The notes below the pieces were generated by a model that made no database searches, was not told the DNA's origin, and was given only the letters and a program-made list of their open reading frames with translations. This document shows, one piece after another, positions 4,192 through 20,680 of a stretch of 64,000 bases of DNA; within the stretch, counting starts at the first letter, position 1; each line of letters opens with the position of its first letter. The position numbers were made by a program, and so were the translations under genes. The stretch is from Ferrovibrio sp. (GTDB lineage: Bacteria; Pseudomonadota; Alphaproteobacteria; Ferrovibrionales; Ferrovibrionaceae): contig NZ_PEKV01000005.1 in the NCBI RefSeq assembly GCF_002796975.1, positions 69,501 through 133,500 on the forward strand, given 5' to 3'.

Positions 4192-6377
4192 AGCCCCATT
4201 CCCCGAACGAGCTGCGCGGCCTTATGGAACAGGCCTGGCTGCCTTTGCTTCTCCACTGCCGCTTCAAGCTGCTTTTTCAGTTCTGCGCCGACAGCCTTCT
4301 CACCCCTGACATCATGCAGATCGTTCCAATCTGTGAGTCCCATTTGCTTCTCCTCAGCTGTAAGAGGCGGGAGGAGAACTTGCGAACCGATGGCCTGTGC
4401 TGCTTCCTGTGCCTTGAGCCACCCGACATTGCCCATGGGCCGACCTTCGAGTTTGTGGTCATTGTCGGCCGCGATGGCAAACTTTCCATCAGGGTATCGA
4501 TCACGAAGCGCCTGACTGACAGGCAGCAGATTGCCGGCGTTGAAAGCCACGACAACGGGTTTGCCGGTTAATTGATGTAGAGTCGCGCCTGTCGCAAAGC
4601 CTTCACAGACGATAGCGGTATCTCGACCGAGCTTGTTGCCCGGGTCGATAACGTACATCAGGCCCTTTTGTCGGCCGCCGGCAAGAAACAGCTTCGACCC
4701 ATCGCGGTCGATAGACTGCAGGGAATGAATTTTGCCATCGATATCACGGCAGGGAACAAGCAGCTTCCCATCGGCATCGATCCGGAGTCCATGAGGAAAG
4801 ACCCCCTTGTCAGTGAGATAGGGATGATCCTTTCCGACCATGTCAGGTCTATCACGGGCTAGCTCTGCGGCCCTCGCACGGAACCAAATATCCGAGGCGA
4901 GGATTGCTGCGGCCTCTTGTCTGGTCAGCAGCTCTTGCTTCCGCTGTTCGCCGCGTGACCTGGCTTCAACCTGCAGCGCCTGGCGTTCAGCTGGACCAGG
5001 TATGTCGATATCCGACACCCACTTGTGAAGTTCATTGGTCTTGAAGTTCTTGAGCTGGCCATTGGCACGACCATCGGGGAAGCCACGATAGGAAGCCGTA
5101 AGGACTCCCGGCTTATCGTCATCAAGCGGCGCTCGATGCCAGGAGCCATCCATGACGGGAACACTTTTGAGCACAACCCCATGCTCGCGCAGGAATGCTC
5201 CAAATTCCTCTGCAGGGGAAGCAGCTGTGACGCGGGCAGGAACATTGCCAGTGCGCCATTGTCTAACGGCTTCTATGTCCGGGCCCTCATGGACATACCA
5301 GCTCTTATGCGTACCATCCCACCTAGCACCTGCAGCTTTCGCTGCTTCCTTTTCCTTGAAAGGCACCTGCAGCCAGATCTTCGGCAGTCGCTGCAGGTTT
5401 TGCGCCTGCTCTGGCGCTTCGAGCTGCTGTTCTTCCATCTTCGTCGCCTTTCTCTGAGCCTGCATCTCTTGTTCGATTTCCTGGCGCTTGCTGGGATCGA
5501 GGATCCATGTCGCAATACGATCCGCGTCACGGGCCGCCTGAAACAGAGCATTCCGGTCGTCTTTGAGCACTTTTAGCCAGGAGGCGGCATAGGAGGCATG
5601 CCGCTCGGGGAAATGGCCGATTGCGAGCTGACGAGCCACCATGTGGCTGGAGATTTCCGCCCTTAATTCCTCGCGCGCATAGACTTCCGATCCGAACGGT
5701 CCAAATTCGCGATCCATCCGGGAGCGGTGACCAGTAGCGTGGCCCAGCTCGTGGAGGGCCGTGGCGTAGTAGTCATAGGCAGTATCGAAAGCCGACATGG
5801 GCGGCAAATGCATCTGATCTGACATGGGGCTGTAGAACGCCCTATCGCTTTGATCATTGAGAAGCTTGACGCCAGATTCCTGCAGGATGCCGTCAGCTGA
5901 AACAATCGGGTCGAAGAATAGCTGGTTTGCCACGTAAGGCGGCATTTCCTCGACCTGTTCGGCGTTGAACACCTTGGCGTAAAATACCGATGGCCTGGTG
6001 AGCTGTACGTCGCGGTAGAACTGTTCGCCTCGGGCATCCAGAACCGGATTGCCGGCGTCGTCACGAACGGCCTCACGCTCCGACCATTTCCAGTATTCGA
6101 TGGTGGTGGCGCGCTCGCCTTTGCGAACCTGGGCACCAAGAGCCTCGGCTTGATTGTAGGTCAACCAGCGAGGATCTGAATAACCCTTCATTTCCAGCCA
6201 GAGTCGGTTGATGCCCTGGTATGGCTTATTGGTCGCCGGATTGAATGCTCGGTCCGCGACGATCCCCGGTTTCCAGGGCTTCTGCCAGGGTGCGGTGCCT
6301 GCCTCAATCTGCTTGTAGATTTCGTCTGCGACTTCGTCGCGCCAGGACGGCCGCTGAGTGGATTTATCCTTGCTCAT
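4188..6377 (-). CDS. ArdC antirestriction - DUF5710 - Toprim primase fusion
   Basis: A 729-residue multidomain protein. Residues about 1-140 match the ArdC N-terminal ssDNA-binding domain. A zincin-type metallopeptidase domain follows, with HELGH at residues 209-213. Next is a DUF5710 module (about 335-370, with AAGARWDGTHKSWYV). The C-terminal third is a TraC-like Toprim primase region (KLLVPCRDIDGK, IVCEGFATGATL, FAIAADNDHK). Known relatives protect incoming DNA from host restriction and prime complementary-strand synthesis in the recipient. The fusion suggests a protein carried into the recipient with the DNA, which is inference. It overlaps both neighbours by four bases. Confidence 0.88.
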   Translation of the reverse strand: MSKDKSTQRPSWRDEVADEIYKQIEAGTAPWQKPWKPGIVADRAFNPATNKPYQGINRLWLEMKGYSDPRWLTYNQAEALGAQVRKGERATTIEYWKWSEREAVRDDAGNPVLDARGEQFYRDVQLTRPSVFYAKVFNAEQVEEMPPYVANQLFFDPIVSADGILQESGVKLLNDQSDRAFYSPMSDQMHLPPMSAFDTAYDYYATALHELGHATGHRSRMDREFGPFGSEVYAREELRAEISSHMVARQLAIGHFPERHASYAASWLKVLKDDRNALFQAARDADRIATWILDPSKRQEIEQEMQAQRKATKMEEQQLEAPEQAQNLQRLPKIWLQVPFKEKEAAKAAGARWDGTHKSWYVHEGPDIEAVRQWRTGNVPARVTAASPAEEFGAFLREHGVVLKSVPVMDGSWHRAPLDDDKPGVLTASYRGFPDGRANGQLKNFKTNELHKWVSDIDIPGPAERQALQVEARSRGEQRKQELLTRQEAAAILASDIWFRARAAELARDRPDMVGKDHPYLTDKGVFPHGLRIDADGKLLVPCRDIDGKIHSLQSIDRDGSKLFLAGGRQKGLMYVIDPGNKLGRDTAIVCEGFATGATLHQLTGKPVVVAFNAGNLLPVSQALRDRYPDGKFAIAADNDHKLEGRPMGNVGWLKAQEAAQAIGSQVLLPPLTAEEKQMGLTDWNDLHDVRGEKAVGAELKKQLEAAVEKQRQPGLFHKAAQLVRGMGL

Positions 6378-6595
6378 TCGCCGCCTCCCTGGTCGTCGCC
6401 GGCGACGGCTGCCAGGCGGCTGTCATCCGCCGCTTGGTCATCGAGCGCTTCATCACGGAAAGCGCCCATGACCATGGCCAGTTCGGGATCGACGGCCACG
6501 ACGAAGCCCTGGGAAGCTGCCTGGGCGACCATAGCTGCCTCTACATTCCGTAGCTCTTTGGGAGGTAGAGGGTTGCTCACGCTGCCACCTGACAT
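6374..6595 (-). CDS. Small unknown protein between virD4 and primase (73 aa)
   Basis: Short acidic protein beginning MSGGSVSNPLPP. Its ATG overlaps the end of virD4 by 19 bases and its stop overlaps the primase ATG by four bases. Longer in-frame starts would lie deep inside virD4, so this short form is preferred. The C-terminal tail is rich in Asp and Gly and has no membrane segment. No family is recognised. Position between the coupling protein and the primase suggests an accessory transfer factor. Confidence 0.6.
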   Translation of the reverse strand: MSGGSVSNPLPPKELRNVEAAMVAQAASQGFVVAVDPELAMVMGAFRDEALDDQAADDSRLAAVAGDDQGGGE

Positions 6596-8382
6596 GCATT
6601 TTCTCCTTCGTTGGTTGCATTGGACGGTGCGGGAATCGATGACCGCTGCCTTAGCGTGCGGTTCTTGAAAAATAGAAACTGCCGGCCGTAGATGGCTGGT
6701 TGGCCAGCTACGAAAATCAGCATGTCGCCGGGCACAACACGGCCAAACCGGCCTTTGCGAAGGCCGGGCAGACTCATGCACTCATCGGGCGTCATCAGAT
6801 TGCGTCCGACCTCAGAGATACTTTCCGAGATATTGCCGGTCAGCTCGCCAGCCTTTGAGGATCTGGACCGCTTTCGCTGTACCAGCGTGGTTTTACCCGT
6901 CAATTCCGACAGGGCCTTGGCTGTGTCGTACTTGTTGGGCGCATAGGCCACACGGATATGGCAGTTGCTGGTGATCGCTTCATCTTTTCCGTATGCGTCC
7001 TGGCTCTGCAGCTGGGCAATATCCTGGACGATGATGAATGCCTTGAGGCCATAGCCGGCCATGTACGCCAGCGCTTCCTGGAAAATGTCTAGTTTCCCAA
7101 GCGACGTGAACTCATCGAGCATGAGGAGCAGGCGGTACCGATAATGTTTAGTTGGCTGGCCAGCACTAAACGTCAATTCCGGCATGAGCCGGTTGAGGAT
7201 CTGGTTCAGCATAAGCCGGTAAAGCGGCCGCAGGCGCTTAATGTCTTTCGGCGGGATCACGAGGTAGAGCGAAACAGGCTTGTCGCTGTTCATCAGATCC
7301 GCGATGCGGAAGTCACAGATCGAGGTATTCCGGGCAACAATCGGATCGGCGTATAGCGACAGGTCTACCTTTGCTGACGAATGCACGCCGCTGCGTTCAT
7401 TCGGTGCGCGCTTTTTCATGCCGCTTGCCGCAGCTCTCACGACCCTGTTTGCGACGGCGTCGCCGTGCTCATACTGCGTCATGTCGTCAAGCAGCGCTTT
7501 AAAGCTGGCATCGCCATCGCTGCCGGCGACTTCAATTTCGTCACCGCCAACCGACATAAATTCATGAACATCTGCGAGCGTGGCGATTTTCTCACCGCCG
7601 CTATCGCGATAAACGACATACAGCACATGGAGGATGGCGGCCGTGAGCCAGCCCCAACCCTCCTTCATCCAGAAGTCTTTTAGGCCTTTGCCCTCGGGAT
7701 CCACGATCATGCTGGCGATGTTCTGGGCGTCAGCCACCTGGTACGGCGATCCGATGCGGACCTCTGCAAGCGGGTTGTACCTGGCTGAGCCGCACAGGGC
7801 GGCGGGGTCAAAGCGCAGGACGCGGTGGCCGATAGCGTTTCGCCAACCGGCCGTCAGGGCGTAGTTCTCGCCCTTGATATCCAGCACCAGGGCGCTTTCG
7901 AGCCATGAGAGCAGGGTGGGCACGACCAGGCCGACGCCTTTGCCCGACCTGGTCGGCGCATAAGCCAGAATATGCTCAGGACCGTTATGATGCAGGGGGC
8001 GGACCCGCAGATTGCCCTTCCAGCCACCTACCACGGCTCCAACTGAGCCAAGCAGGGCGGCTCGCCTGGCATCGCCCATGTTCGCCCACCTTGCGGAGCC
8101 ATGGGTATTCCGGGCATCACGGCCGCCATGGAGGGTGGTCGTGTCGGCTCGTGCGATCAGCATCGCCGCCGCGCCCATGACGACGACGCCGGCAGCGCCT
8201 GTCCACCACACGGGGTATAGGAGATTCGACGGCAGGCCGCCGGTCACCATGATGGTCTTGAGAAGCCAGACCCACCACCTCGGATCCAGCGAATTAAAGC
8301 CTACCGCCCAATGCCACTGAATCCCGATGGCGACCAGAGTCAGGAGGAACACGACGACGAATGAAATTCGAACCGCAATCAT
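6577..8382 (-). CDS. virD4: VirD4/TraG type IV coupling protein
   Basis: A 601-residue membrane ATPase that links the relaxosome to the mating channel. Two N-terminal membrane helices are visible (about residues 5-25 and 60-78). They are followed by a Walker A motif PTRSGKGV at 143-150 and a Walker B with the family signature LLMLDEFTSLGKL. Downstream is the motif AFIIVQDIAQLQ. The length and order match VirD4 proteins of VirB-type systems. It lies directly after virB11, with a 15-base gap, and before the primase gene, as part of the same leftward transcript. Confidence 0.95.
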   Translation of the reverse strand: MIAVRISFVVVFLLTLVAIGIQWHWAVGFNSLDPRWWVWLLKTIMVTGGLPSNLLYPVWWTGAAGVVVMGAAAMLIARADTTTLHGGRDARNTHGSARWANMGDARRAALLGSVGAVVGGWKGNLRVRPLHHNGPEHILAYAPTRSGKGVGLVVPTLLSWLESALVLDIKGENYALTAGWRNAIGHRVLRFDPAALCGSARYNPLAEVRIGSPYQVADAQNIASMIVDPEGKGLKDFWMKEGWGWLTAAILHVLYVVYRDSGGEKIATLADVHEFMSVGGDEIEVAGSDGDASFKALLDDMTQYEHGDAVANRVVRAAASGMKKRAPNERSGVHSSAKVDLSLYADPIVARNTSICDFRIADLMNSDKPVSLYLVIPPKDIKRLRPLYRLMLNQILNRLMPELTFSAGQPTKHYRYRLLLMLDEFTSLGKLDIFQEALAYMAGYGLKAFIIVQDIAQLQSQDAYGKDEAITSNCHIRVAYAPNKYDTAKALSELTGKTTLVQRKRSRSSKAGELTGNISESISEVGRNLMTPDECMSLPGLRKGRFGRVVPGDMLIFVAGQPAIYGRQFLFFKNRTLRQRSSIPAPSNATNEGENACQVAA

Positions 8383-8397
8383 TGTTTTTCTCGAAAG

Positions 8398-9366
8398 TTA
8401 TGCCGCCGCCAGCAGGAAATTACCGTCTTGCAGGATGAACCTGTCGTTCCGAGGCTCGTAAATGTCAGTAATGCGACGCCAGCCGTCGCTGCTGCGCTTG
8501 ATCTGCACAACTACGTCGACCAGCTCGCGCAAAAACTCAGGTACTTTCGGCATGTGATTGCCTGACCAGGCGATGTTCTGCTCGAACTTGCGATTGATCG
8601 CCTGGTGCGTGCTTTCGGCATGGATCGAGCACATGAAGCCCGTCATGCCGCTGTTGAGGATCGCTAGCGCGACAAATGCATTCTGGGTGGAGATCTCGCC
8701 CAGGATGGGGTGATCGGGTGTGGCGCGCATCAGATGGTCGTATATCTGCCGCCAGGTAATCATCCCGGCACCAGTGCCTTCCTCACGGGCGGCGATCAAA
8801 CCAACCCCATCCCAGAACCTGCCCAGATGCAGCTCAGGCGTATCTTCGACGCCGATAACGCGCCGATCCTCCGGGATGCATTCCAGTAGCTTATTCAGAA
8901 GGGTCGTTTTGCCAGTATTTGTGGCACCCGAAACGATGATGTTCTTTTCGGCGCTGACAGCGCCGATGAGATAATTCCTCACAGCATCATTCACCCCCAG
9001 CTGTTGCCAGCTGGGGCTAAACGGATGCTTACAGCGGATAGCCAGGGAAAGGCCGGTTTGGACAGAAGGACCAACCAAACACTCGAAGCGGTGACCGCCA
9101 GGCAGGACAGTTGACAGCTTCGGCTTGGTATCTGGATCGAATACCAGGCCATGCCAGTTGCCGAGAGCCTTGCAGATCGTTTCGATCACCGACAGCGATA
9201 GCTCAGGGCATTCAATCTGACGCTTACCATCGCCGCGCCGGTCGGTCGTGACGACTTCCTGCCGGACCATCCGAATCTCAATAGTGCTGGGATCTGAGTA
9301 ATGCTGCGCCAGCGGCTCAAGCAGCCGGCGCAGCATCAGGTCAGATCCATGAACGGGAGCATTCAT
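8398..9366 (-). CDS. virB11: VirB11 secretion ATPase
   Basis: A 322-residue hexameric traffic ATPase. It has a Walker A GATNTGKTTLLN (about residues 147-158), an Asp-box region VEDTPELHL, and the motif CSIHAES typical of VirB11. The start at MNAPVHGSD is chosen because it follows the upstream gene by 14 bases; a longer reading would extend into that gene. In the family it powers substrate transfer and pilus assembly at the inner membrane. The P-loop reads ATNTGKT rather than the commoner GGTGSGKT, a mild variation that keeps the essential GKT. Confidence 0.94.
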   Translation of the reverse strand: MNAPVHGSDLMLRRLLEPLAQHYSDPSTIEIRMVRQEVVTTDRRGDGKRQIECPELSLSVIETICKALGNWHGLVFDPDTKPKLSTVLPGGHRFECLVGPSVQTGLSLAIRCKHPFSPSWQQLGVNDAVRNYLIGAVSAEKNIIVSGATNTGKTTLLNKLLECIPEDRRVIGVEDTPELHLGRFWDGVGLIAAREEGTGAGMITWRQIYDHLMRATPDHPILGEISTQNAFVALAILNSGMTGFMCSIHAESTHQAINRKFEQNIAWSGNHMPKVPEFLRELVDVVVQIKRSSDGWRRITDIYEPRNDRFILQDGNFLLAAA

Positions 9367-9380
9367 GGTGCTGACCAGGC

Positions 9381-11504
9381 TCAATACGGGCAGGGCGGCA
9401 GGAACATCTGCTGCACCGGAGGTCCGGGAGGGCCAATGTTTGTCCAATGCCAGTTGAGCACCTGGCTATCCATTATCCCGCCGTTGCCAGAGTACCAGCC
9501 GCCAGAATCGAACGAGCAGGTGTTACCTACAATCTGGCCAGTCTCAGTGTTTTTGAGTTGGTGTTTCTGAATTAATCCAGTCACCCACATTCGCTGGTAC
9601 CAGTAGTCTTGTTGGTTGCTGTCCCCAACGGTGTGAAACAGTTGGTAGTAATATCCGGTCGTGAGCCGCCGGTTATCTATGAGCGTGGTAACGCAAACAT
9701 CGACTGGGCCGGCCGGCGTGCCAGCGCCGATAACCTTGTTGTAAATCGTGTTGTCCGAGCGCTTCCATTGCTCAACCTTATTGGTCTCGCGAAGTGCATC
9801 GCATCCTTGGTATGTCGAGGTTCCGGTCGGAACGGTACTGGTGCCCTGCAGCTCATAGGGAAGCTGCACAGCCCCGGGCAGAACCTCGCTCACCTTGATA
9901 TCAAACCGGCCAGAAGCAGGTTCGATGTAAACGGTCGTTTGTGCATAACTATAGAGCTGGCCATCATGGTTCTGATAACCGGTGATCTGAACCTTATGGA
10001 CGTAAACGGACTGCGAGTTCTGGCACTGGCCGAGATACTTCCGGCTGCCATTGTCGAGGAAGAAGAACCGCTCTTGCCCATAGGACCGCGCTGCCGCCAT
10101 GTCGTGCTGCCACAGTGACGGGTCTGTGCAGCCGTCTGTCGTAGACTGGACAGCCAGAGTCGATGTGTCTGGCGTGCAATCAGTGATGAACTGGCTGAGA
10201 GAGCCGACGGTGATTCGCAGCCTGCTCTGTAAGGCAACGGTGCTGGCGTTCTGATCGATGACGGGTTGGCAGATATAGGCCCCACCGGCATCCGTGTAGA
10301 CTTTGGTTTGCGGATACTCAGTGCCATTGTCCGCGCAAGCGCCGGCCTGATAGGTGACGCCTTCCAGTGTGTAATGATGCGTTCCTTGCTGAAAGCTTTT
10401 CGAGTTGGCGAAATCGTGGCGGATCGAGCAGCCGTTCGTTGTCGCCACCAGCTGAACGGCTGGTTTTGCCTCAGAAGCTTCACAACCACGAACCTGAACC
10501 TCGCGGTTGCTGGCATCCATGTAAACCAGCGTCGCTCTAGGCGTCGCCAGCTTGCCTACATAGTCAAGCGAGACAGTGCAGGAGTCGTACTTCTCGACAA
10601 TGGGAAAAATCTTGTCGGCATCCGGAGTGCAGTCGGTGACTTCTTTGGTCGCGCCACCCTCATCAACATAATAGAGCTTGAATTGTGCCTGGGATTTCCG
10701 GGCGTCCAGATCGATTTGATCGCTGCAGACGCTGTAGCTGCGCAGCAGCGGGAACCCCTTGCTTGAATCACTGCATTCGGTCTCAGACTGGACCGTGCCG
10801 CCCTTTGAGGTAATCGACTTGTTCTGTTGGACAGCCCTCAGCTGCGCCAGGTCGACGCGGATCGGGCAGCCATCCGATGAAACGCGCACGGATTCCTCCG
10901 GCGCTGGTGCCACTGACACTGCAGAAGGCGTCTGATAGTTGCCGGCAAGGTCGTTCTGGCGCTGGCCGCTATTCGACTGCGGAGCGGCGGCCTGCTGAGT
11001 TGCCTTGGCCGGCTCTTCCTTTTTCTCCTCTTGCTTGGCGGCAGCAAGTTTCTCCAGGGCAGCCCGGAGCTGAGCGCGATCACCTTTCACCAGCACATCG
11101 GCCGCAGGATCCAGCTGCGGCTTTGTCATATCGAATTGGGCGGTGAAATCTGTCGAGTTCAGAGCTTCCTGGCGGCCGTTTTTCTCCACACCGACCAGGA
11201 CGACCTGGCCAATTTTCTTGCTGTTCACGTCGACATATCGGGTGTAGCCCTTGGCAGTAACACCATCAGTCAATGTCCGCTCGATCCCTGGCACGTTCAG
11301 CAGGGACAGATCGATGGCGCGCGGTTCGTTAAGCGGAACATCGATGGCGGTCCTGGCCTTGGTCAGGATCTCCACCTTTTCAGCCAGAGAGGGTGCCTCC
11401 GGCAGAGCGGAAACAGGCTTGGTTTGGGCATGCGCCCCGATCGCCATTGTTCCAATGATCGTCAGAACGATGGCGGCAATGCAGTTGATGACAATTCTAG
11501 TCAT
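9381..11504 (-). CDS. Exported cysteine-repeat protein between virB10 and virB11
   Basis: A 707-residue protein with a signal peptide (residues 1-26, ending AIGAHAQ). An N-terminal region of about 130 residues and a charged Lys/Glu/Ala linker (about 145-175) follow. Then come six tandem units with Cys pairs at 213-244, 260-292, 309-341, 359-390, 412-443 and 459-494. The period is 47-53 residues, each unit has one pair 31-35 residues apart, and there is a shared C-x-x-(I/V)-x-x-D opening. The mature protein has 16 cysteines, an even number, consistent with disulfides in the periplasm or outside. A distinct C-terminal domain of about 200 residues is rich in Tyr, Gln and Gly. I recognise no family. 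Position in the virB operon suggests a channel accessory, pilus-tip or adhesion protein. Confidence 0.85.
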   Translation of the reverse strand: MTRIVINCIAAIVLTIIGTMAIGAHAQTKPVSALPEAPSLAEKVEILTKARTAIDVPLNEPRAIDLSLLNVPGIERTLTDGVTAKGYTRYVDVNSKKIGQVVLVGVEKNGRQEALNSTDFTAQFDMTKPQLDPAADVLVKGDRAQLRAALEKLAAAKQEEKKEEPAKATQQAAAPQSNSGQRQNDLAGNYQTPSAVSVAPAPEESVRVSSDGCPIRVDLAQLRAVQQNKSITSKGGTVQSETECSDSSKGFPLLRSYSVCSDQIDLDARKSQAQFKLYYVDEGGATKEVTDCTPDADKIFPIVEKYDSCTVSLDYVGKLATPRATLVYMDASNREVQVRGCEASEAKPAVQLVATTNGCSIRHDFANSKSFQQGTHHYTLEGVTYQAGACADNGTEYPQTKVYTDAGGAYICQPVIDQNASTVALQSRLRITVGSLSQFITDCTPDTSTLAVQSTTDGCTDPSLWQHDMAAARSYGQERFFFLDNGSRKYLGQCQNSQSVYVHKVQITGYQNHDGQLYSYAQTTVYIEPASGRFDIKVSEVLPGAVQLPYELQGTSTVPTGTSTYQGCDALRETNKVEQWKRSDNTIYNKVIGAGTPAGPVDVCVTTLIDNRRLTTGYYYQLFHTVGDSNQQDYWYQRMWVTGLIQKHQLKNTETGQIVGNTCSFDSGGWYSGNGGIMDSQVLNWHWTNIGPPGPPVQQMFLPPCPY

Positions 11505-11518
11505 GGTCTTCCCCTTGC

Positions 11519-12646
11519 TTACTTGCTTGAAGGTTTGGCGGCCGAGCTAGCCAGGTCGGCTGGTGGCGGAGCAGGGCCATCCTCGATTCGGCGGATGTAC
11601 CAGTCCTGGGCAGGTCGGATCTGCGCCCGTGTACCCTGCGAAATTGTGATGATCGGCATGAGGTTGATGTTGCGCTCCAGATCGGAGGCGGCGATCTCGC
11701 CCAGCTTTTGGCTCAGCTCTTGGGAGCCCTTATCGGCAATGGCCGAGGTGGTGCTTCCAGATGTCGTGGTGGCAGTCGTGGTGGTGGTGGTTTGCGTTCC
11801 GACTGCAGTGGCCAGGCGCACGCTGGCAGAGAGGCCGGCGAGAATGAACGCCGTGCCATAACGCTCCCAAAATCGGTTATCTACATCGCCAGTCACCCCA
11901 CCACGGCCCTGTACGTCAGCCACGGGCGCTGCGAGCTGCAGGATCTCCGAGCGGTATTCGGCCATGAGGATCCGGGCGCAATTGAATGACAGCCTGGAGT
12001 CACCCTGCCGGCGAGGGCTGCTGTAGTCGCAGACCATGCGGGAGCCTTTCGGAACCAGGAGATTGCGGCCGTGATAGCCAAACACGTCCCGGCTCACCTG
12101 AAGGATGACCTGGCCGCCGTTCTTGCTTTCGATCTGGCTGTTAACGCCAGTCTCGAAAATGACGCTGATATAGCGGTCGGTTGTGAGGATCCGCGAGCTG
12201 TCGACCGGGAGGCCTGAGATCCTGCCGTCGTGATGGTATTTCTCCTGGATCTGGGGTGGTGGCGGCGACAAGTTGACATTCTGAATGCCGGCGTTGGGCA
12301 TGCCGGACGTGATGATCGATTCAGCGGCAGTGTGCGGAGCCAGCTGGAAGCCGCCAGAGGCACGCCTGGCCAGTGTTGACGCCAAGGCCAGGCGATATGG
12401 ATTTGGCGGAGGTGTCACGACCGGGGCCGGTGCGGGTGGCTGCGGTGCCGACACAGTGCGCTCGATCACCACAGGCGGCATTGCCGGCGACGGAGGAGGC
12501 GGCGGCGGCGCGGGCGGCGCGGGCTTAAAATTCCACGCTGCCTGGTCGTCGGCCGGCAGTGCCGGCTGCCGGTCCGGCGCTTGCGGTCCACACATGCCAC
12601 CGAACGTCAAGCCAAGGGCCACTAAGACGTCACAGAGGGCCATCAA
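11519..12646 (-). CDS. virB10: VirB10/TrbI-like channel core protein
   Basis: A 375-residue protein with a short hydrophobic N-terminus, a proline-rich segment (about residues 42-60, with a run of six Pro) and a C-terminal TrbI/VirB10 beta-barrel domain. Recognisable blocks include GRISGLPVDSSRILTTDRYI, then RNLLVPKGSRMVCDY. A hydrophobic antenna-like segment, TAFILAGLSASVRLA, is followed by a Thr/Ser-rich stretch (10 Thr in 12 residues near 285). In the family it spans both membranes and senses ATP use by VirB4 and VirB11. It overlaps virB9 by four bases (ATGA). The N-terminal cytoplasmic tail is almost absent, so the membrane helix sits at the very start. Confidence 0.9.
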   Translation of the reverse strand: MMALCDVLVALGLTFGGMCGPQAPDRQPALPADDQAAWNFKPAPPAPPPPPPSPAMPPVVIERTVSAPQPPAPAPVVTPPPNPYRLALASTLARRASGGFQLAPHTAAESIITSGMPNAGIQNVNLSPPPPQIQEKYHHDGRISGLPVDSSRILTTDRYISVIFETGVNSQIESKNGGQVILQVSRDVFGYHGRNLLVPKGSRMVCDYSSPRRQGDSRLSFNCARILMAEYRSEILQLAAPVADVQGRGGVTGDVDNRFWERYGTAFILAGLSASVRLATAVGTQTTTTTTATTTSGSTTSAIADKGSQELSQKLGEIAASDLERNINLMPIITISQGTRAQIRPAQDWYIRRIEDGPAPPPADLASSAAKPSSK

Positions 12647-13905
12647 ACGCCCCTGTACTCAATGCAGATGAAGCTTAGGCCGGATTTCAGCGTGATGAGG
12701 CGCTGCGTGCTCTCGACGACGAGAGTTGTACCGTTGACGCGGGTGTTGACCGTCTCATCGATGCCGTCCACCACGATATAGGCGGTCGGAAGTTCGATAT
12801 CCTTCCACTTATCGCCGAACCGGATGTAGGTGAAATAGTCGTCCCTAAAGACAGTCTCCGGCTTCAGCTCATTGCTGCCGCGAAGGCTGTAATTGCCCCA
12901 ACCCCGCAGCCTGTCGGGGCTGAAGGCAGCCGTTTGAACAAAGTCCGGCTGCTTTTGAGAGCTGCTGACGGCCTTGGCCGCTTCCGCCAGTGCTGCCGGT
13001 GTTGGTGATTTAGAACTGCTTTGATTACGCGGTTTGGTGATGCCGTTACCTGCAGGTTCAGTCGCATCCTGGTCTACATTGTCCTTCGAGGGTTCGGTTT
13101 CGCTCGCCAGCGGTGCAGGTTTAACGATGCGAACATGCCCCTCGATCACGAACCGCAGATCCGGGACGTTCCGACTGTTGATGCTCTCAGTGCGGAGATA
13201 GATCGGATATGTCTGGCCAGACTTGCCGTAAACAATGAGATTTGTATCGATGCCGAAACCTTGCGGCCGAACGGCAATCCGACGATCACCACGCTTTACG
13301 ACTTCGAAGTTCTCAGTATCGCCGTTGTCCCAATTCTCGATCTGCTCACCTGTCGGCAGCTCGATCAGGGAGACCATGTATTCACGCAGGCGGACCTTAT
13401 ATTCGCAGTCGTTGCACATCTGCGCTTTGAAGGTGCCCTTGGCTTTGTCGCTGTCCCAGGCTTCCTGGACCTGACCGCCAACCGCGCCCCGCTTCATTGC
13501 CGTAAACTTGCCCTCAGCCTGGTCTGCCGCCTGGCGCACCATGGAATCCGGGACCGGAACGGCCGTGACCGGCCCTAGCGGTGCCGGCGTCGGGATTCCT
13601 GACGAGGATCCGCCGAGCACACGCGGACCGCCAACCGCCGTCTGAGCCGTGGCAGACGCAGCAGCCACCAACACGCCAACGGCGACCACGACCCAGAAAA
13701 CCGCAAAGTCCAATGCGAACAGCGGCCCGGGGCGGCTGCCTTCGGCAGCCCGCTTCTCCGAACGGTGCAGCTGGTACGCCATGAGAGAGAATGGAATGAA
13801 GCCGACCAGTAGGCACCAGCGCATGAGATACTTGTCGCCTACGAGCAGCCCGAACATGCTGGCCGCCAGGCACACCAGAGCAGCAATCAAAACTAGATAA
13901 ATCAT
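12643..13905 (-). CDS. virB9: VirB9/TrbG-like protein with N-terminal membrane extension
   Basis: A 420-residue protein. The C-terminal two thirds match VirB9/TrbG of the outer-membrane core complex, with conserved blocks such as VRLREYMVSLIELPTGEQIE, then RRIAVRPQGFGIDTNLIVY and the C-terminal YFTYIRFGDKWKDIELPTAY. The unusual part is the first 90 residues. Two hydrophobic helices (about 1-22 and 28-47) precede a third (about 64-88) that looks like the normal VirB9 signal peptide ending in ASATAQ. The ATG overlaps virB8 by four bases, which supports the long start; an internal start would give a classical exported VirB9. Both readings are plausible. Confidence 0.88.
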   Translation of the reverse strand: MIYLVLIAALVCLAASMFGLLVGDKYLMRWCLLVGFIPFSLMAYQLHRSEKRAAEGSRPGPLFALDFAVFWVVVAVGVLVAAASATAQTAVGGPRVLGGSSSGIPTPAPLGPVTAVPVPDSMVRQAADQAEGKFTAMKRGAVGGQVQEAWDSDKAKGTFKAQMCNDCEYKVRLREYMVSLIELPTGEQIENWDNGDTENFEVVKRGDRRIAVRPQGFGIDTNLIVYGKSGQTYPIYLRTESINSRNVPDLRFVIEGHVRIVKPAPLASETEPSKDNVDQDATEPAGNGITKPRNQSSSKSPTPAALAEAAKAVSSSQKQPDFVQTAAFSPDRLRGWGNYSLRGSNELKPETVFRDDYFTYIRFGDKWKDIELPTAYIVVDGIDETVNTRVNGTTLVVESTQRLITLKSGLSFICIEYRGV

Positions 13906-14645
13906 GCGTTAGCCCTCTCCTTGAGAGACATTTCCAGCACGGTGAAGCCATGCGGGTTTTCGTACTTGTCGACGGGATGGACCCGATGTGGTCGGGTGGT
14001 GATGTTGAGGTATGCGCGCAGCTTCCTTTGCTCGACCAGGACGCCGTTGCGCTTATCGATCTGCAGAAGCTCGACCGAGTATTTGTAGGTGTTGCCGACC
14101 GCTTCGATGCGTTCGGCGGTTTCGATCATGATTGAGCGCGTCAGGCCGCCCTTGATCTCTTTCTCGACCTCGGCCTTCCGGTCCTTGGTAAATCGCTCAA
14201 AATACTTGCCATCCGCCACGCGCGAGCAGAAGCGCATGCGCTCGACTTGAGTAACGGAGTCAATTTCCAGGCATTCGCGGACATACCGCTTCGCAATGCC
14301 TTCCATGGCCACATCGAAGCCGTAGACGTTTTTCGCGATAGGCTCGATACGATAGATTTTATCGTTGGCATCGTAGGAACGAACCAACGCTACTTCCGTT
14401 GTTTTCAGCGGAATCATGGTCGCGATGGCATTGGCCAGAACGACGATCGTAAACAGCAGCGCGATATTTGTGCCGGCCGAAATCCTAAGCAGCCAGGCTA
14501 ACCGACGATGAGCAACCTGGAAGCTATAGGGATCTGCTTCATTCACTGACTGGTGCTGATCGGTGGGAACGACGGTGCCGGCTCCGGCGACAGTGCCTCG
14601 CGCCCGCTTGGGGAATGGAGGCAGCTTTAGCTTCAAGAGGCCCAT
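13902..14645 (-). CDS. virB8: VirB8 inner-membrane channel protein
   Basis: A 247-residue bitopic protein. It has a cytoplasmic N-terminus of about 50 residues, one membrane helix (about 55-78, with LLFTIVVLANAIATMI) and a periplasmic VirB8 domain with KNVYGFDVAMEGIAKRYVRE and a C-terminal block ending ENPHGFTVLEM. Family members assemble the inner-membrane complex and contact VirB9 and VirB10. The gene lies after virB7, whose end it overlaps by 13 bases, and is coupled to virB9 by an ATGA overlap. Length and order match the standard VirB arrangement. Confidence 0.92.
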   Translation of the reverse strand: MGLLKLKLPPFPKRARGTVAGAGTVVPTDQHQSVNEADPYSFQVAHRRLAWLLRISAGTNIALLFTIVVLANAIATMIPLKTTEVALVRSYDANDKIYRIEPIAKNVYGFDVAMEGIAKRYVRECLEIDSVTQVERMRFCSRVADGKYFERFTKDRKAEVEKEIKGGLTRSIMIETAERIEAVGNTYKYSVELLQIDKRNGVLVEQRKLRAYLNITTRPHRVHPVDKYENPHGFTVLEMSLKERANA

Positions 14646-14893: not shown

Positions 14894-15967
14894 TTAGGGC
14901 TTGGGGGGCTGCTTGGTGGCCTTCTGCAGCAGCGCCTGGACGTGATCGCCGATGCTCTGGCCATTGAACTTGAGTTCGCCGGTTTGCGAGTTCATTCCGA
15001 TGTTCGGAATCATCGACAGTCCTTGGCGGCCGTACTTGAACAAGGCCGCGCCCGTAGCCGCTGTGCCGGCCGTGATAATCGCGGCCGCCTGATTTGTGAG
15101 CTGGGAGCCAGTGATCGAATTGGCGATGCTCGTCGCCTCAGTCATGAATGCTGTGCCGAGCCAGCCCAATGCGACAGCGAGGACGAATTTTGCGTTGTTG
15201 ATGCGAGCGAAATCAGCGGCTTGATCGAGCGGCATGTCGTCGAGGCCAAGACGTGTGACCCCGTAAAGCATGATGCCTAAGGCAAGGGTGCTGCCGAAAA
15301 GCACCATGAATGATGAAATTACTGTGCGAATGCCCTTGGTGGCGATCTCGCGGCCCCAGCCGAAACCAAAACCCAACATCATAAATGGGCTGAGTGTAGC
15401 CAACATCGTGATGCGGAAGATCGATACTACGACCTGAGAGAAGTAGACGATCAGTACTAGAAAGTACGGTACGATCAAAACAATCGCGAAAAGTACGGGC
15501 AGCCAGTTCGTCCACCCGACAGTCTTTGCGATGGAAAAGGCCATCTGAAAGACGGAAACAACTCCTTCTTCTGCAACGCATACCAACTCGGTCATACCGG
15601 CACCTAGAGACTCGGTTGAAGGCGCGGGCGCGCCTTGTACATCTTTGTTGGCGACTAGAAGCGCCGTTGCTGCCGCTGCGCCCATCATCTTCAGTGCAGC
15701 GATGAAAATGACGTTGACTAAGCCTGGTCCCGAACCAAAGAGAAGCAACGCGGAAATGAAGACGTAGATGCTTTCTTTGCCGAGGTCCGATACTGTTGCT
15801 TTGAGCAGAATCATCCGGTAACCGTGCACGATTACCCAGATTCCAATGTATGCAAGAAAGGCAGTTTGCATGGCGCTAACCAGAGCCATACTCAGTTCTT
15901 GGGTATATCCATTGGCCAGGTCGACATACTCAGCGACAATGTCGTCCGTGAAGCATTCGTTATTCAT
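14894..15967 (-). CDS. virB6: VirB6/TrbL inner-membrane channel protein
   Basis: A 357-residue polytopic protein with at least five hydrophobic segments, among them TAFLAYIGIWVIVHGY, YVFISALLLFGSG, WLPVLFAIVLIVPYFLVLI and ISSFMVLFGSTLALGIMLYG. This is the VirB6/TrbL pattern, including a periplasmic loop after the first helices. The chosen ATG at 15967 has an AGGGTG ribosome site seven bases upstream; a GTG three codons earlier is also possible. The start overlaps head-to-head with a plus-strand gene. In the family it forms part of the DNA path through the inner membrane. Confidence 0.9.
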   Translation of the reverse strand: MNNECFTDDIVAEYVDLANGYTQELSMALVSAMQTAFLAYIGIWVIVHGYRMILLKATVSDLGKESIYVFISALLLFGSGPGLVNVIFIAALKMMGAAAATALLVANKDVQGAPAPSTESLGAGMTELVCVAEEGVVSVFQMAFSIAKTVGWTNWLPVLFAIVLIVPYFLVLIVYFSQVVVSIFRITMLATLSPFMMLGFGFGWGREIATKGIRTVISSFMVLFGSTLALGIMLYGVTRLGLDDMPLDQAADFARINNAKFVLAVALGWLGTAFMTEATSIANSITGSQLTNQAAAIITAGTAATGAALFKYGRQGLSMIPNIGMNSQTGELKFNGQSIGDHVQALLQKATKQPPKP

Positions 15968-16433
15968 TGGCGTCACCCTGACTTTTTTGGGAATTGCCCC
16001 GGTAAGCGCTCAGGACTGGCGCTTCGGCAACAACGTGCATCGGGATAGCTTTTTTGATTTCGCTGCGGCGAAAGCGAATTGGACGGCCTTGAAAGGTGCC
16101 GAACAGCTCCAAAAGTACAGAAAGGCAAACTGCCCAGCAGGGAATGAGTACGAGCGTTGGGCAAAAAAGCTGGATACGGACCGCAAGGCCGCTATGAGCG
16201 ATCTCGAGAATGAAAGAAATGCAGAGCTGATTAAGCGATGCCACGACCTGTACTTGATGGCGTACAAGTGGGACGAATTGTGGGGATATTGGAGAGCTGC
16301 CCCCAGCCGTATCAGGAAGTGGAATGACCTGGATCAGGCAAGCAATGCCTGCGCTGCAATACGACGGGGCAATATCTTCACAGGACAATGCAATGACTTG
16401 CCGGACTGGCAAGAGTGGCGAGTTGGAAATTGA
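15939..16433 (+). CDS. Exported unknown protein, entry-exclusion candidate 1
   Basis: A 164-residue protein read against the rest of the tra cluster. It has a clear signal peptide (MSSVKHSLFIGVTLTFLGIA, cleavage after VSA near residue 26). The mature part is Trp- and Lys-rich with three or four cysteines. A GTG three codons downstream is an alternative start. No family is recognised. It directly abuts the following membrane-protein gene. The pair lies between virB5 and virB6, which is where RP4 trbK and pKM101 eex are found, so surface or entry exclusion is a reasonable hypothesis. The start overlaps the virB6 start by 29 bases in the head-to-head orientation. Confidence 0.65.
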   Translation: MSSVKHSLFIGVTLTFLGIAPVSAQDWRFGNNVHRDSFFDFAAAKANWTALKGAEQLQKYRKANCPAGNEYERWAKKLDTDRKAAMSDLENERNAELIKRCHDLYLMAYKWDELWGYWRAAPSRIRKWNDLDQASNACAAIRRGNIFTGQCNDLPDWQEWRVGN

Positions 16434-16916
16434 ATGCCACACTGGGTCAAGGTGATGCTCGATAAGCTCGACCTGGTTCTCGCGGACCCGGCCTGGGCTG
16501 TGCTGGCTTACCTTGCCCTTTCCCTGGCGGTCTTGCTGCCATATGCACAGCTGAGGAAGCGGGCGTTGGCGAGGATCGAAAGTGCTATGGCCGGAAGTCC
16601 CCAGAAGAAGGATTTGCTGTTGGGCATCCTCCACATACCCATGACAGTGCTGCCTATCATTCTGTTCTTCCCGCTTTTTCCCCTGACAATTTACCTGTTC
16701 CGTGAAAGTAACGCCGAGCCGGTCTTGTTCGAACGTAACAGTCACGGCGAGAAGCCGGCGCGCATAGTCCCCAAGAAGCGTAAGGGAATGAAAGACAAAA
16801 ACCGTCCTATCGGCGGTAGCAAGGTCGCCGAAGGCATACTGCTCGACCTTGATCCCCATGAGGATCGCGCAGCGATAAAGATCGCGCGAACGCTGCGTAA
16901 TCAAATTATTGATTGA
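16434..16916 (+). CDS. Two-helix membrane protein, entry-exclusion candidate 2
   Basis: A 160-residue protein starting directly after the stop of the preceding plus-strand gene. Two hydrophobic segments are visible (about residues 20-40, AWAVLAYLALSLAVLLPYA, and about 60-90, ending PLTIYLF). A basic soluble C-terminal tail of about 70 residues follows. Base choice at third codon positions is GC-rich in this frame, which favours it over the antisense reading. The stop lies five bases from the virB5 stop, so the two converge. I recognise no family. It may act with the preceding exported protein to block redundant transfer, by analogy of position only. Confidence 0.65.
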   Translation: MPHWVKVMLDKLDLVLADPAWAVLAYLALSLAVLLPYAQLRKRALARIESAMAGSPQKKDLLLGILHIPMTVLPIILFFPLFPLTIYLFRESNAEPVLFERNSHGEKPARIVPKKRKGMKDKNRPIGGSKVAEGILLDLDPHEDRAAIKIARTLRNQIID

Positions 16917-16921
16917 CGCTC

Positions 16922-17674
16922 TCACGGTGAACCTTCCTCTTCTGCCGCAAGGACGCTTTGCGGAGGCAAGGACGTAAGCGCCATATAAGTGGACTGCACC
17001 TTGAGCAGTTGCGCGAGGATCTGTGTCTGTTGGATATGCGCCCTAGCGATAACGACCTGTCCTTGGGCGATACTAGCAAGCCACTCGTTGCTTTCTTTTG
17101 CGGCGAGAACCGCCGTTTCCAAATCTGACGCAGCTTTGTTCATATCTTCAGCTCCGCGAATGGCCATGTCTGCTTGGCCATTTCCTTTCGCAGCCGCGTC
17201 GACTGCGATGTTGATGCGACGCGACTCTACGGCGCGGCGCATTTCATCTTGCTTTGCGAAGGGCTGGCCCTTCATCTTCTTGGGATCGAGCCACATTGCG
17301 GTCCGGTAGCCACTAGATGCGTGGCAGATCGAGCCCCATGACACATCGTCCATATCGACGCCGGGCATCAATCGGTCGAAATTGGGCATAAGGCATTCGG
17401 AATCCTGACGGAGCCTGCTGGCCACTCGCTGCAGGTTCAGCATCGGTATCGAGATTTGCCCCATCTTGCCGATGGCATTTGCCTGTTGGCGTGTCGCATT
17501 CATGATGGCGGTCAGCGCATCGATTTGCTGCTGCATTTTGGTGAGCTGTTCGGCCAACTTCGCAATCGCCGCCTGGTCGATTACCTGGTCTAGGGCATAT
17601 GACGGCGTTGCTGTCGACACCAAAGCCGAAAGCAGCAGCGCAGCCGCGTAGGACTTCAAAGATGGTTTAGCCAT
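16922..17674 (-). CDS. virB5: VirB5/TrbJ-like pilus-associated protein
   Basis: A 250-residue exported helical protein. It has a signal peptide (MAKPSLKSYAAALLLSALVS, ending TPSYA) followed by a long coiled-coil region (AAIAKLAEQLTKMQQQIDAL). A middle cysteine-containing loop and a second long helix (HIQQTQILAQLLKVQSTYMA) come next. This is the VirB5/TrbJ pattern; such proteins sit at the pilus tip and contribute to recipient recognition. I chose the ATG at 17674 because a run of six G lies just upstream as a ribosome site; an earlier ATG adds four residues. It overlaps the end of virB4 by 19 bases. Confidence 0.88.
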   Translation of the reverse strand: MAKPSLKSYAAALLLSALVSTATPSYALDQVIDQAAIAKLAEQLTKMQQQIDALTAIMNATRQQANAIGKMGQISIPMLNLQRVASRLRQDSECLMPNFDRLMPGVDMDDVSWGSICHASSGYRTAMWLDPKKMKGQPFAKQDEMRRAVESRRINIAVDAAAKGNGQADMAIRGAEDMNKAASDLETAVLAAKESNEWLASIAQGQVVIARAHIQQTQILAQLLKVQSTYMALTSLPPQSVLAAEEEGSP

Positions 17675-20037
17675 TCGGCCCCCCATTGAGTTTTTAGATC
17701 GGCGATGACGCGGTTGGCTTCCGGGCCTGAGCGATAGAACCGAAGGGCATCACCTAGGATGGCCAGGTTCACATCGATGATCGCGCTTTCATCCAGGCCG
17801 GTAGTCGCATCGCGCTGGACTACTAGAGCCTGGCGCTGGCCCTCCTTTGTGTTGCCTGCGCCGAGGATGAAGCCAATCTGCTCTTCGTTCAGATTGAAGC
17901 GTTCCAGGCTGTCGCGACGTGCCTGGCTGTTCGGCAGGAAGATCAGGGTCGCGGTGTTGTCGAGAATTGCATCACTGACACCAGAATCGAAAAGTGCCTT
18001 CGGATCCTGGAAGCCAAGGCCGACAAATCCATCGAGCTTGCGGTATTCGCGGAACATCTCGATAGCCAGGGACTTGAAGCCGTCATTCTGTAGAAGCTTC
18101 GCCGCCTCATCGATGTAGATCCCGAAACCCTTGGTGTTGCTGGATGCCGAAATTCCAATAGCTGACGAAATGTGGGTGACGACGCCCGGTCCTGTTGCAG
18201 GGTCATCCAGGGCCTCGTTCATATTGATGCCGACCAGGTGCGAGGCTGCCAGGAAGCTTCCCAGGCTATCGTGGGGGGCATTCATCAGGTGGGAGCGAAT
18301 GCCCTTGCTGCCCTTTCCGTCTACCACCCACGGCGCAATAGCCCGCCGCAAGTGAGTTCCACGTGGGAACGCAAATTCAAAAATCGTATTGAGGGTGCGG
18401 TTAGGTACTTCTGTTTTAAATACCAGCTCCACTGCATGGGCGAGGATCTCGTCATCCTTCTCACCGCGTTCATAATGACCAGCGAGGGCCTTTAGGATTG
18501 TGTAGATCCGCTGCCGGTTTTTAGCTGTGTCGTCGCCAACATCGAGCGGGTTGAGCTGAAGTTCATCGTAACCCTGATAAAGGCCGCCCATGGCCTCGAT
18601 CATGAAGCGCGCGCCCTCTTTAGAATCGAAGACGTAAGAGCGGACGCCATTGAATTTGGCTAAGCCGCCCAGCAAGTGGATAATCAGCGTGGTCTTGCCT
18701 CCACCTGTCGGGCCAAAGCAGAGAAAATGGCCCTTAGACTGGCGCTTCTGAGAAACATGGAATTGAAGCGCATAGGCTTGGCCAGATGGCGTCCTGAAAT
18801 ACCGGACGGGCCTATCACCGAGCGGGCTAGTCGGCTGGCCTGTATATGAGTGATGGTAAGGCCAGATGGCTGCGATATTCTGCTCGCGCAGTATCAGCGG
18901 CCTGAGCAGACTAGTTGAGCTGGAAACGCGCCGCTGTTTTAACGACGGAATTCGAGCAAACCAGCAAAGTCCAGCACCTTTGGTCTCAACAGAATATTCT
19001 ATTCGGCGGCTACCAAGTGTTTTGCAGATATCACCGATTAGGCGATCCAGCTCCGGTTCAGTTGAGCCTCGCGCCGTTATCTGGAGTTGGGTGGAGAAAA
19101 CGGTGGTGTTGCCGGCAGCGAGCAGCGCTAGGGTGGCGACGACCTGGGCCAGCAGCTCATCGCTCTTGATGAATGATGATTCCAGCTCCTTTTTGCGGCG
19201 GCTGTAGAGTGCAATCGCTTCGTCGCGATCCCAGGGCTCGCAGATCTGTGCAATCTCAAGATCGCCTTGGATCGCCAGAATATCGGCCAATATTTGACCC
19301 GTGAGACTTTCGGGCCAGTCGCGGATCGCAATCGTCCGGTGGATCTTCAGATATGGAACGCGTGTAGAAATCGTCCCATCTGTCGTAACAATCAGATCAG
19401 CTGCCGGAATGCTTCCCGACATACTGCCTGAACGTCGTGTCAGATCATCGCGGAATTCACCCGAGACAAGGTAATTGACGAAGCAAGTCAGGGGGCATGG
19501 TGCTTCAGACGACTCAGGAGAGGATAGGAGCGCTGGCTTATACTGCTCCATCATCGACGTGACTTTGTCGCAGCCCTCTAATATCGCGGTTTTAGTCCTC
19601 CCTCCGATTACTACATACCAGTTGACGTAATAGGCCGACTGAAATACGGCGCGCTCAGCGTTGCCTATTTCTTTGAGGGTGCTGCTAGGCCACTCGGCTT
19701 GAAAGCCGATGTCGCGCTGGCGCTTGATGCCGAATATCCAGTGGTGGATACCAAGTTTACCTAAAGCATGATGCAGTGCTGCCCGACCGAGCAGCATTTG
19801 CTCCTGCTGCGGCATTACTTTGGCGTCATAACTAGTGCCGCGAATCTGGAAAACTCTAAACAGTCCGCCGCTTTTGACTCGGACTGACTGCAGATCTGGA
19901 TCGATACCATCGATCTCCAGCTCGTTCGCGATCCAGTCCTGGGACACATCGCCCAGAAACAGCTTGCGCGTCGACGGCTCTACAAGCGCACCAACCGACA
20001 GAGCCGCAAGGCTGGTCATGATGACTTCACCCCACAT
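17656..20037 (-). CDS. virB4: VirB4 secretion ATPase
   Basis: A 793-residue ATPase with the CagE/TrbE/VirB4 architecture. It has an N-terminal domain of about 420 residues and a P-loop GPTGGGKTTLI at about 442-452. The Walker B-like segment IYIDEAAKLL is followed by a motif region with FQDPKAL and LIFLPN. The start at MWGEV overlaps the virB3 stop (TAATG), which supports it over longer readings inside virB3. In the family it energises pilus assembly and DNA transfer and interacts with VirB3, its upstream neighbour here. Confidence 0.95.
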   Translation of the reverse strand: MWGEVIMTSLAALSVGALVEPSTRKLFLGDVSQDWIANELEIDGIDPDLQSVRVKSGGLFRVFQIRGTSYDAKVMPQQEQMLLGRAALHHALGKLGIHHWIFGIKRQRDIGFQAEWPSSTLKEIGNAERAVFQSAYYVNWYVVIGGRTKTAILEGCDKVTSMMEQYKPALLSSPESSEAPCPLTCFVNYLVSGEFRDDLTRRSGSMSGSIPAADLIVTTDGTISTRVPYLKIHRTIAIRDWPESLTGQILADILAIQGDLEIAQICEPWDRDEAIALYSRRKKELESSFIKSDELLAQVVATLALLAAGNTTVFSTQLQITARGSTEPELDRLIGDICKTLGSRRIEYSVETKGAGLCWFARIPSLKQRRVSSSTSLLRPLILREQNIAAIWPYHHSYTGQPTSPLGDRPVRYFRTPSGQAYALQFHVSQKRQSKGHFLCFGPTGGGKTTLIIHLLGGLAKFNGVRSYVFDSKEGARFMIEAMGGLYQGYDELQLNPLDVGDDTAKNRQRIYTILKALAGHYERGEKDDEILAHAVELVFKTEVPNRTLNTIFEFAFPRGTHLRRAIAPWVVDGKGSKGIRSHLMNAPHDSLGSFLAASHLVGINMNEALDDPATGPGVVTHISSAIGISASSNTKGFGIYIDEAAKLLQNDGFKSLAIEMFREYRKLDGFVGLGFQDPKALFDSGVSDAILDNTATLIFLPNSQARRDSLERFNLNEEQIGFILGAGNTKEGQRQALVVQRDATTGLDESAIIDVNLAILGDALRFYRSGPEANRVIADLKTQWGAEWLNHL

Positions 20038-20354
20038 TACGGCAACCTGTCGAGCTGAGTGGCACGGCCGGCAAGGAAGAACGCCGTCTTGCCCCGAGAA
20101 GCCCAAAAACGCGGGGTCGAGAACAGGTAATTGCCGAAGTGGCAATCTTGGTTGTTCTTGCGCCACAACCACGTCCAAAGACAGATCACGACCGCAAGGG
20201 AGGTGGGTATGGCCAGCGGAGCGAAGCCGACACCCACCATTAGGCCGAAGGTGCAGCCCATGCCGGCGATCACCAGGATCATCACCTTGGGCGGCAGCCC
20301 AAAGAGCGTCAGCGGCTTCTGAACGCCCGTGAACACGAAGCTACTGGCCTTCAT
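20037..20354 (-). CDS. virB3: VirB3 inner-membrane protein
   Basis: A 105-residue protein with the VirB3 pattern: a short N-terminus with VFTGVQKPLTLFGLPP, two adjacent hydrophobic helices (about residues 20-58) and a C-terminal tail. It starts at MKASSFVF, overlapping the virB2 stop by four bases, and is coupled to virB4 through a TAATG overlap. VirB3 is required for pilus assembly and is often fused to or partnered with VirB4. Confidence 0.9.
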   Translation of the reverse strand: MKASSFVFTGVQKPLTLFGLPPKVMILVIAGMGCTFGLMVGVGFAPLAIPTSLAVVICLWTWLWRKNNQDCHFGNYLFSTPRFWASRGKTAFFLAGRATQLDRLP

Positions 20355-20680
20355 GTGCCCATGCTCTTGCTGAGGTTGATCAGGCCGCGAATGATCGCCG
20401 GACCGGCCATGATGCAAATCCCGCCGACGATACACATGGCGAGACGCTGCCAATCCATCTGCCCCTTCAATGTCGCGATGATGCCGGCAACGATTACGCC
20501 GATGCCAACCAGGACCGCGCCCAGCGTGACAAGGCCCGCTTCGATATTACTAGCCGCCTCCACACCTGGTTCGACCCAGGAGTCATCAGCAGCAATAGCG
20601 AGCTGAGGAGCTGCGAACGTGACGAAAGCCACCGCGATCAAAAGGATCAACGACGGCAGGTATTCTGTGGGTTTACGCAT
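20351..20680 (-). CDS. virB2: VirB2 major pilin
   Basis: A 109-residue prepilin with a long signal peptide (about 30 residues, cleavage after LAIA). The mature part has two hydrophobic helices (about 45-72, LVTLGAVLVGIGVIVAGIIA, and about 80-98, LAMCIVGGICIMAGPAII) separated by a short charged loop. This matches VirB2/TrbC pilins that polymerise into the conjugative pilus. It is the first structural gene of the channel set and is coupled to virB3 by an ATGA overlap. Confidence 0.92.
   Translation of the reverse strand: MRKPTEYLPSLILLIAVAFVTFAAPQLAIAADDSWVEPGVEAASNIEAGLVTLGAVLVGIGVIVAGIIATLKGQMDWQRLAMCIVGGICIMAGPAIIRGLINLSKSMGT

Follow-up and report, generated by a model that had tools for sequence, protein, structure and literature searches.

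In mating-pair stabilisation of IncF plasmids, the tips of TraN select among recipient outer-membrane proteins (PMC10516633). TraN of F contains 22 cysteine residues (PMC10516633, PMC9246713). PilV of TP114 is an adhesin composed of a constant part of 345 aa and a variable C-terminus of 69-113 aa, and this exchangeable C-terminus sets the recipient affinity (PMC9045228). According to recent reviews, conjugation by R388 (VirB-type) or RP4 has no known specific recipient factor, and a specific receptor has likewise not been identified for the pilus-tip protein VirB5 (PMC10516633, PMC12624023). The protein described here is a conserved member of VirB-type operons with an exchangeable end, and thereby a concrete, testable candidate for recipient choice by these elements.

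The virB operon of Ferrovibrio sp.

The window, i.e. the entire stretch of 64,000 nucleotides that was analysed (Ferrovibrio sp., RefSeq assembly GCF_002796975.1, contig NZ_PEKV01000005.1, positions 69,501 to 133,500), contains a VirB/VirD4 set. Together with VirB2, a VirB5-like protein, a coupling protein and a relaxase, this set looks like a complete conjugative element (Table 1). The element lies on an 851-kb contig and is thus either chromosomally integrated or part of a very large replicon. The gene of the 707-aa protein is separated from virB10 by 14 nt and is abutted by virB11 at its other end, with all three genes on one strand. The longest ORF of VirB11 overlaps the end of the tip by 67 nt, and its likely start, MNAPVHGS, is located just past the stop of the tip gene.

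Table 1. Features of the gene of the 707-aa protein and of the surrounding operon, in positions of the window unless stated otherwise
Feature	Position	Strand	Basis
Entire gene, exported 707-aa protein between virB10 and virB11	9381..11504	(-)	ATG start
Signal peptide, residues 1-27, AHA-Q, without lipobox	11424..11504	(-)	read from sequence
N-terminal domain, residues 43-158, mixed beta with C-terminal helix, conserved, probable anchor	11031..11378	(-)	AlphaFold pLDDT about 90; conserved positions in alignment A4
Linker, residues 159-203, predicted disordered	10896..11030	(-)	pLDDT 29-42 along most of the linker
Stem, six cysteine-paired units, residues 209-513, every unit predicted as a short beta meander	9966..10880	(-)	cysteine spacing, unit profile, AlphaFold
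Neck, residues 514-604, conserved Cys568 and Cys604	9693..9965	(-)	invariant in alignments A4/A5; pLDDT about 96 in the model of L038
Hypervariable C-terminal tip, residues 605-707	9384..9692	(-)	tip comparisons among relatives
MobA/VirD2-type relaxase with TraI middle domain	1-820 (window) and 1339-2820 (L060)	(-)	crosses the left edge of the window
VirD4/TraG coupling protein	6577..8382	(-)	
VirB11 ATPase	8398..9447	(-)	NCBIfam VirB11 E 2e-45, under the model's curated cut-off
VirB10	11519..12646	(-)	Pfam TrbI E 2e-38
VirB9	12643..13905	(-)	family match
VirB8	13902..14645	(-)	family match
VirB6	14894..15976	(-)	family match, synteny
VirB5-like protein	16922..17686	(-)	position and synteny; without Pfam family
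VirB4	17656..20178	(-)	relative in L002 annotated VirB4; own match only weak TraG P-loop
VirB2 pilin	20351..20680	(-)	

Further features of the element are mentioned briefly. The VirB9 ORF has about 60 additional N-terminal residues with membrane segments ahead of the apparent signal peptide, which stem either from an artefactual upstream start or from fusion to a small membrane protein. Two ORFs located between the genes of the VirB5-like protein and VirB6 are encoded on the strand reverse to the operon (15846-16433 and 16434-16916, both (+)), one with a signal peptide and one membrane-like. In some VirB-type plasmids, exclusion genes sit between VirB5 and VirB6, and the two ORFs are candidate entry-exclusion genes. 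Beside the coupling protein, a 729-aa protein (4188-6377, (-)) combines an ArdC-like N-terminus, a zincin peptidase, DUF5710 and Toprim, and is a candidate anti-restriction protein or primase. The transfer operon is adjoined by a long run of genes (22804-62955), some of which have functions related to surface polysaccharides or nucleotide sugars. Encoded within this run are DegT aminotransferases, Polysacc_synt_2, methyltransferases and a capsule synthesis-like protein.

Architecture of the 707-aa protein

The first-pass annotation described an exported protein of 707 residues between virB10 and virB11, containing six units of 47-53 residues with one cysteine pair each, spaced 31-35 residues apart, and a total of 16 cysteines in the mature protein. 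The ORF, the Sec-type signal peptide (MTRIVINCIAAIVLTIIGTMAIGAHAQ) and the family matches of the flanking genes all agree with this description. The precursor contains 17 cysteines (positions 8, 213, 244, 260, 292, 309, 341, 359, 390, 412, 443, 459, 494, 568, 604, 663, and 705), and C8 falls within the signal peptide. Of the 16 cysteines in the mature protein, 12 form the six stem pairs, while the other four are located at positions 568, 604, 663, and 705. Recomputed pair spacings are 31, 32, 32, 31, 31, and 35 residues, with start-to-start distances of the units of 47, 49, 50, 53, and 47 residues. The units also resemble each other beyond their cysteines, with a mean z of 2.8 against shuffles with fixed cysteines; several pairs reach z 4-7 and some are near 0. 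This similarity and the matches of the unit profile in every relative of sufficient length indicate that the six-unit repeat is not due to chance. The pair Cys568/604, the N-terminal domain, the linker and the variable tip had gone unmentioned in the initial description.

In silico modelling with AlphaFold (20 sequences) resulted in a pLDDT of 79 overall and a pTM of 0.34. The stem and neck (residues 204-604) are confidently predicted as all-beta, and the tip is mostly uncertain. Each unit of the stem is modelled with a pLDDT of about 90, yet the units are not packed into one globule. The combination of low pTM and high local confidence fits a row of independent beads in the model, and an extended shape is not proven thereby.

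Distribution of the family

A described family with a different role was looked for in Pfam, NCBIfam, PHROGs and the PDB sequences, and none matched the 707-aa protein above threshold. MtrF-like domain III reached an E of 9e-4 but is under the family cut-off, and Shiga B-subunit models (E of at least 0.03) are at chance level. The phage genomes and viral contigs searched contained no relatives. An hhalign comparison of the N-terminal domain and stem with the VirB5-like, VirB8, VirB9, and VirB10 proteins of the same operons revealed no profile similarity. The earlier statement that no such protein is part of the classical VirB set is in line with these results.

Relatives were found by several searches. 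A tblastn search against plasmids returned 13 records, in which the annotation is absent or reads only "hypothetical protein". In 11 of the 12 plasmid regions opened, the gene is located directly after virB10, including L006, where only broken remains are present. The twelfth region (L001) begins at the start of the record with the gene, followed by virB11. In L006, a Roseibium plasmid, the gene copy (8737-10867) is split over several frames and represents a natural broken copy unless it is an assembly error. Of 385 alphaproteobacterial genomes screened by a profile search, 11 contain the family. In a sample of the phylum, 4 of 398 genomes matched, all from the same class, namely the window's own genome, two already known from the alphaproteobacterial search and one new genome. 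A pattern scan of one genome per species, covering 84,980 species, yielded 22 loci; the pattern was drawn from alignment A3, as alignment A1 is too diverse for pattern searching. Hosts of the family are Alphaproteobacteria, Nitrosospira, and Desulfovibrio. The closest relative of the window protein, with 98% identity, is found in the metagenome-assembled genome CROMO_A_67 (L031). Two systems are present in one strain in T. lohafexi (L045/L049) and T. profundimaris S25-3-2 (L040/L042).

Homologues at the same locus of other VirB-type elements, the search for which had been suggested at the outset, were found almost every time. The order virB10, gene of the 707-aa type, virB11 on one strand is present in 38 of the 39 loci in which both flanks are visible (by our count). 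The exception is L023/L054, where virB10 precedes the gene and virD4 follows it. In L054 (8156-12472), a 1.3-Mb single-contig alphaproteobacterial genome, the gene has only four units and is flanked by virB10 and virD4, virB11 being absent from the space between these two. Judged by sequence, the family is real, unnamed and undescribed, and represents an operon component so far annotated only as "hypothetical protein". T4SS operons thereby gain a component that had gone unrecognised.

Variation of the stem

The cysteine spacing of the stem (30/31-16-32-17-32-18-31-22-31-16-35) is near-invariant and recurs in relatives with about 35-50% identity. In all relatives of adequate length, the unit profile detects 4-11 units. 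Specifically, most relatives contain six units, Roseibium eight, Caenispirillum (L050) nine, M. molischianum (L048) eleven, Azospirillum five, and L023 four. In the M. molischianum relative (8001-10685), the eleven units apparently derive from a duplicated five-unit block, as indicated by the spacing pattern.

Single units fit single four-stranded blades of WD40-like propellers with a VIA Z of up to 3.5 over 39 residues, which is a common arrangement. A fold search with the whole model retrieved only propeller-like rows with a TM of about 0.05. A closed beta-propeller formed by the stem units is unlikely, as the variable unit number and the low pTM speak against it. The neck and tip of L038 gave nothing at E<0.001 or Z>=5 in a fold search.

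Exchange of the C-terminal tip

Alignments with distant relatives often end at Cys604, and the tip beyond this residue comprises roughly 95-196 residues. Among the tips, at least two classes recur, beside many singletons, and many class members end with WGW/LGW or PPCP[FY]. Tryptophan accounts for 3.4% of the residues in tips versus 0.9% in stems, and acidic residues are fewer in tips. Two tip classes are found in Magnetospirillum, in which the stems are about 60-76% identical.

Several pairs of loci combine near-identical operons with different tips. L001 and L040 share 95% identity in the stem, 97% in VirB11, and 96% in VirD4, with only 42% in the tip. The corresponding values for L039 and L042 are 94% in the stem, 100% in VirB4, and 41% in the tip, and for L034 and L049 they are 96% in VirB10, 98% in VirD4, 99% in VirB4, and 43% in the tip. 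In sliding windows along the DNA, an identity of about 90% drops to 35-55% within the tip and recovers to about 93% at virB11. For L034 and L049, dS of the tip is saturated, compared with a dS of 0.22 for VirB10. The reverse is seen for L036 and L049, where dS of the tip (0.29) is lower than that of VirB11 (0.58), VirB10 (0.62), and the stem (0.77). In AU tests, the grouping of L036, L037 and L049 is rejected by VirB10 (p 1e-35), VirD4 (p 4e-7), and VirB11 (p 0.005), and the grouping of L034 and L049 is rejected by the tip data (p 3e-36). As these groups were picked with the pairwise identities already in view, the formal p-values lose some weight, though hardly so at such size. The tip trees decisively contradict the trees of VirB10 and VirD4, which indicates that tips are exchanged by recombination. 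Variation is also seen elsewhere in these operons, namely in the gap between VirB5 and VirB6, in stretches of VirB9 and VirB10, and in accessory genes. Within its own gene the tip thus varies most, but other stretches of the operon are variable too.

Within a class, tips show a dN/dS of 0.04-0.25. This purifying selection indicates that the tip is functional and not decaying. It also bears on the idea of a periplasmic or outer-membrane-core spacer, a cap or collar strengthening the VirB channel, in which the tip would vary through relaxed constraint and ordinary recombination. Such a role is in line with the near-constant position of the gene beside virB10, the conserved N-terminal domain and the lack of a visible route through the outer membrane. 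Recurring tip classes under purifying selection are, however, not a product of relaxed constraint, and 4-11 units would be odd for a fixed envelope spacer, so that we consider this role improbable. The first-pass annotation had proposed a stalk, an adhesin or a channel cap; with the varying unit number and the exchange of the end domain between otherwise near-identical operons, stalk and adhesin are favoured, and the cap less so.

A constant N-terminal part followed by a variable C-terminal domain is also the layout of polymorphic toxins. The protein could accordingly be read as a constant delivery part with repeats and an exchangeable toxin domain that is sent via the T4SS. Space for an immunity gene is absent, however, as virB11 overlaps or starts within about 110 nt in all intact loci with the sole exception of L044 (273 nt). 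No toxin family matched the family members scanned, and cysteine-containing, beta-rich tips suit binding better than catalysis. A toxin is thus highly improbable.

The tip matches no known fold with confidence. In the relative from Desulfovibrio ferrophilus (L010, 5406-7769), it is glycine-rich and, as the only tip with such a hit, matches the phage family phrog_4474, which has no assigned function, with an E of 3e-11; the same tip region had no match among phage records. Tip copies outside the gene were absent from the fetched loci, apart from the broken gene copy of L006 and refetched same loci, and no cassette repeats were found in positions 9000-11600 of the window.

Proposed role in recipient binding

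In the protein, a probable anchor domain is joined by a flexible linker to a countable series of cysteine-locked modules, which is followed by a conserved neck and an exchangeable Trp-rich end. This layout suggests a stalk with a receptor-binding tip. Based on this stalk-like layout and on the counterparts TraN and PilV, we propose that the protein is an accessory mating-pair adhesin in a clade of VirB-type systems and that its tip sets recipient preference, a role that we regard as moderately probable. The N-terminal domain would be held at or in the outer-membrane core beside VirB10, and the linker would cross the outer membrane. The disulfide-locked modules may then form an elongated stalk outside the donor, allowing the tip to bind a structure on the recipient surface. 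Such binding would hold the mating pair together and determine which recipients are preferred, as TraN does in F-like and PilV in I-type systems.

Several observations count against the adhesin reading. No lipobox and no barrel is predicted that would provide an outer-membrane export route beyond Sec. The tip matches no known fold confidently, and it shares its divergence with other parts of the operons, such as the VirB5-VirB6 gap and portions of VirB9 and VirB10. The Roseibium proteins of L004 and L007 differ also along much of the stem, and the proteins of L011 and L023 are without a recognisable tip.

The strongest rival explanation is that the tip varies to escape an attack on the donor, for instance by pilus- or T4SS-specific phages, or because resident relatives direct surface or entry exclusion at it. 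In that case, the protein would be a structural extension of the transfer machinery, and its tip an antigen and not a recipient-specific ligand. Hypervariability and allele exchange would be equally expected in this case, and the strains that hold two such systems are in line with it. For exclusion, a partner gene should change with the tip, but the candidate exclusion genes of the window and of L031 have diverged despite identical tips, in what is one pair only. Furthermore, a whole dedicated Trp-rich end domain is more ligand-like than a few changed loops. Escape or exclusion is thus considered rather unlikely.

Extended to VirB-type elements as a group, the adhesin reading implies that they carry a recipient-choosing stalk of an undescribed family and swap its tips by recombination to change partners, like the tail-fibre tips of tailed phages. 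For this broader proposal, the chances appear about even. The natural tip variants on near-identical backbones provide ready-made comparisons.

Comparison with known systems

Cysteine-containing repeats are also known from CagY, a VirB10-type outer-membrane-core protein of the Helicobacter Cag T4SS. The 707-aa protein shares such repeats with CagY, and differs in having a gene of its own, predicted beta modules and a tip that varies. The idea of a stalk is shared with the single-layer beta rods of SasG E-G5 from staphylococci, to which the neck bears a very weak resemblance (VIA Z 2.2, 46-112 residues, rmsd 3.4-8.6) that is far under a meaningful score and only a hint. In VirB-type systems, the pilus-tip protein VirB5/TrwJ and accessory adhesins of the pKM101 KikA/Pep type are comparable, being minor or accessory parts of the T4SS with a presumed contact to the recipient (PMC12624023). 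VirB5 is helical, whereas the 707-aa protein is predicted to be all-beta with cysteine-paired modules. A substitute for VirB5 was rejected, as the same operons contain a separate VirB5-like gene and hhalign to VirB5-like proteins gave a probability of 0.1%.

TraN of IncF plasmids is similar in being an exported, cysteine-rich protein of about 600-700 aa that is encoded in the transfer region and combines a conserved body with a variable tip (PMC10516633, PMC9246713). TraN family models of Pfam and NCBIfam did not match the 707-aa protein at E<=1. The 707-aa protein differs by its tandem two-cysteine units of variable number and by the C-terminal location of its variable part, which is internal in TraN. 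In addition, the TraN system is F-type (MPF_F), whereas the gene described here belongs to a VirB2-VirB11/VirD4 operon, two relatives of which are typed MPF_T.

With PilV of the IncI plasmids R64 and TP114, the protein shares a long constant N-terminal part, which is followed by a C-terminal domain that is exchangeable and comparable in size. Features of a type IV minor pilin are absent from the 707-aa protein, which has an ordinary Sec-type signal peptide and matches no pilin family. Programmed switching of tips by a shufflon was rejected, as no cassettes are present near the gene in the fetched loci or in positions 9000-11600. Unlike for PilV, neither a recombinase nor silent cassettes were found near the locus, and exchange takes place between elements and not by programmed inversion. 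By sequence a relative of neither, the 707-aa protein is best read, by analogy, as working like TraN and PilV.
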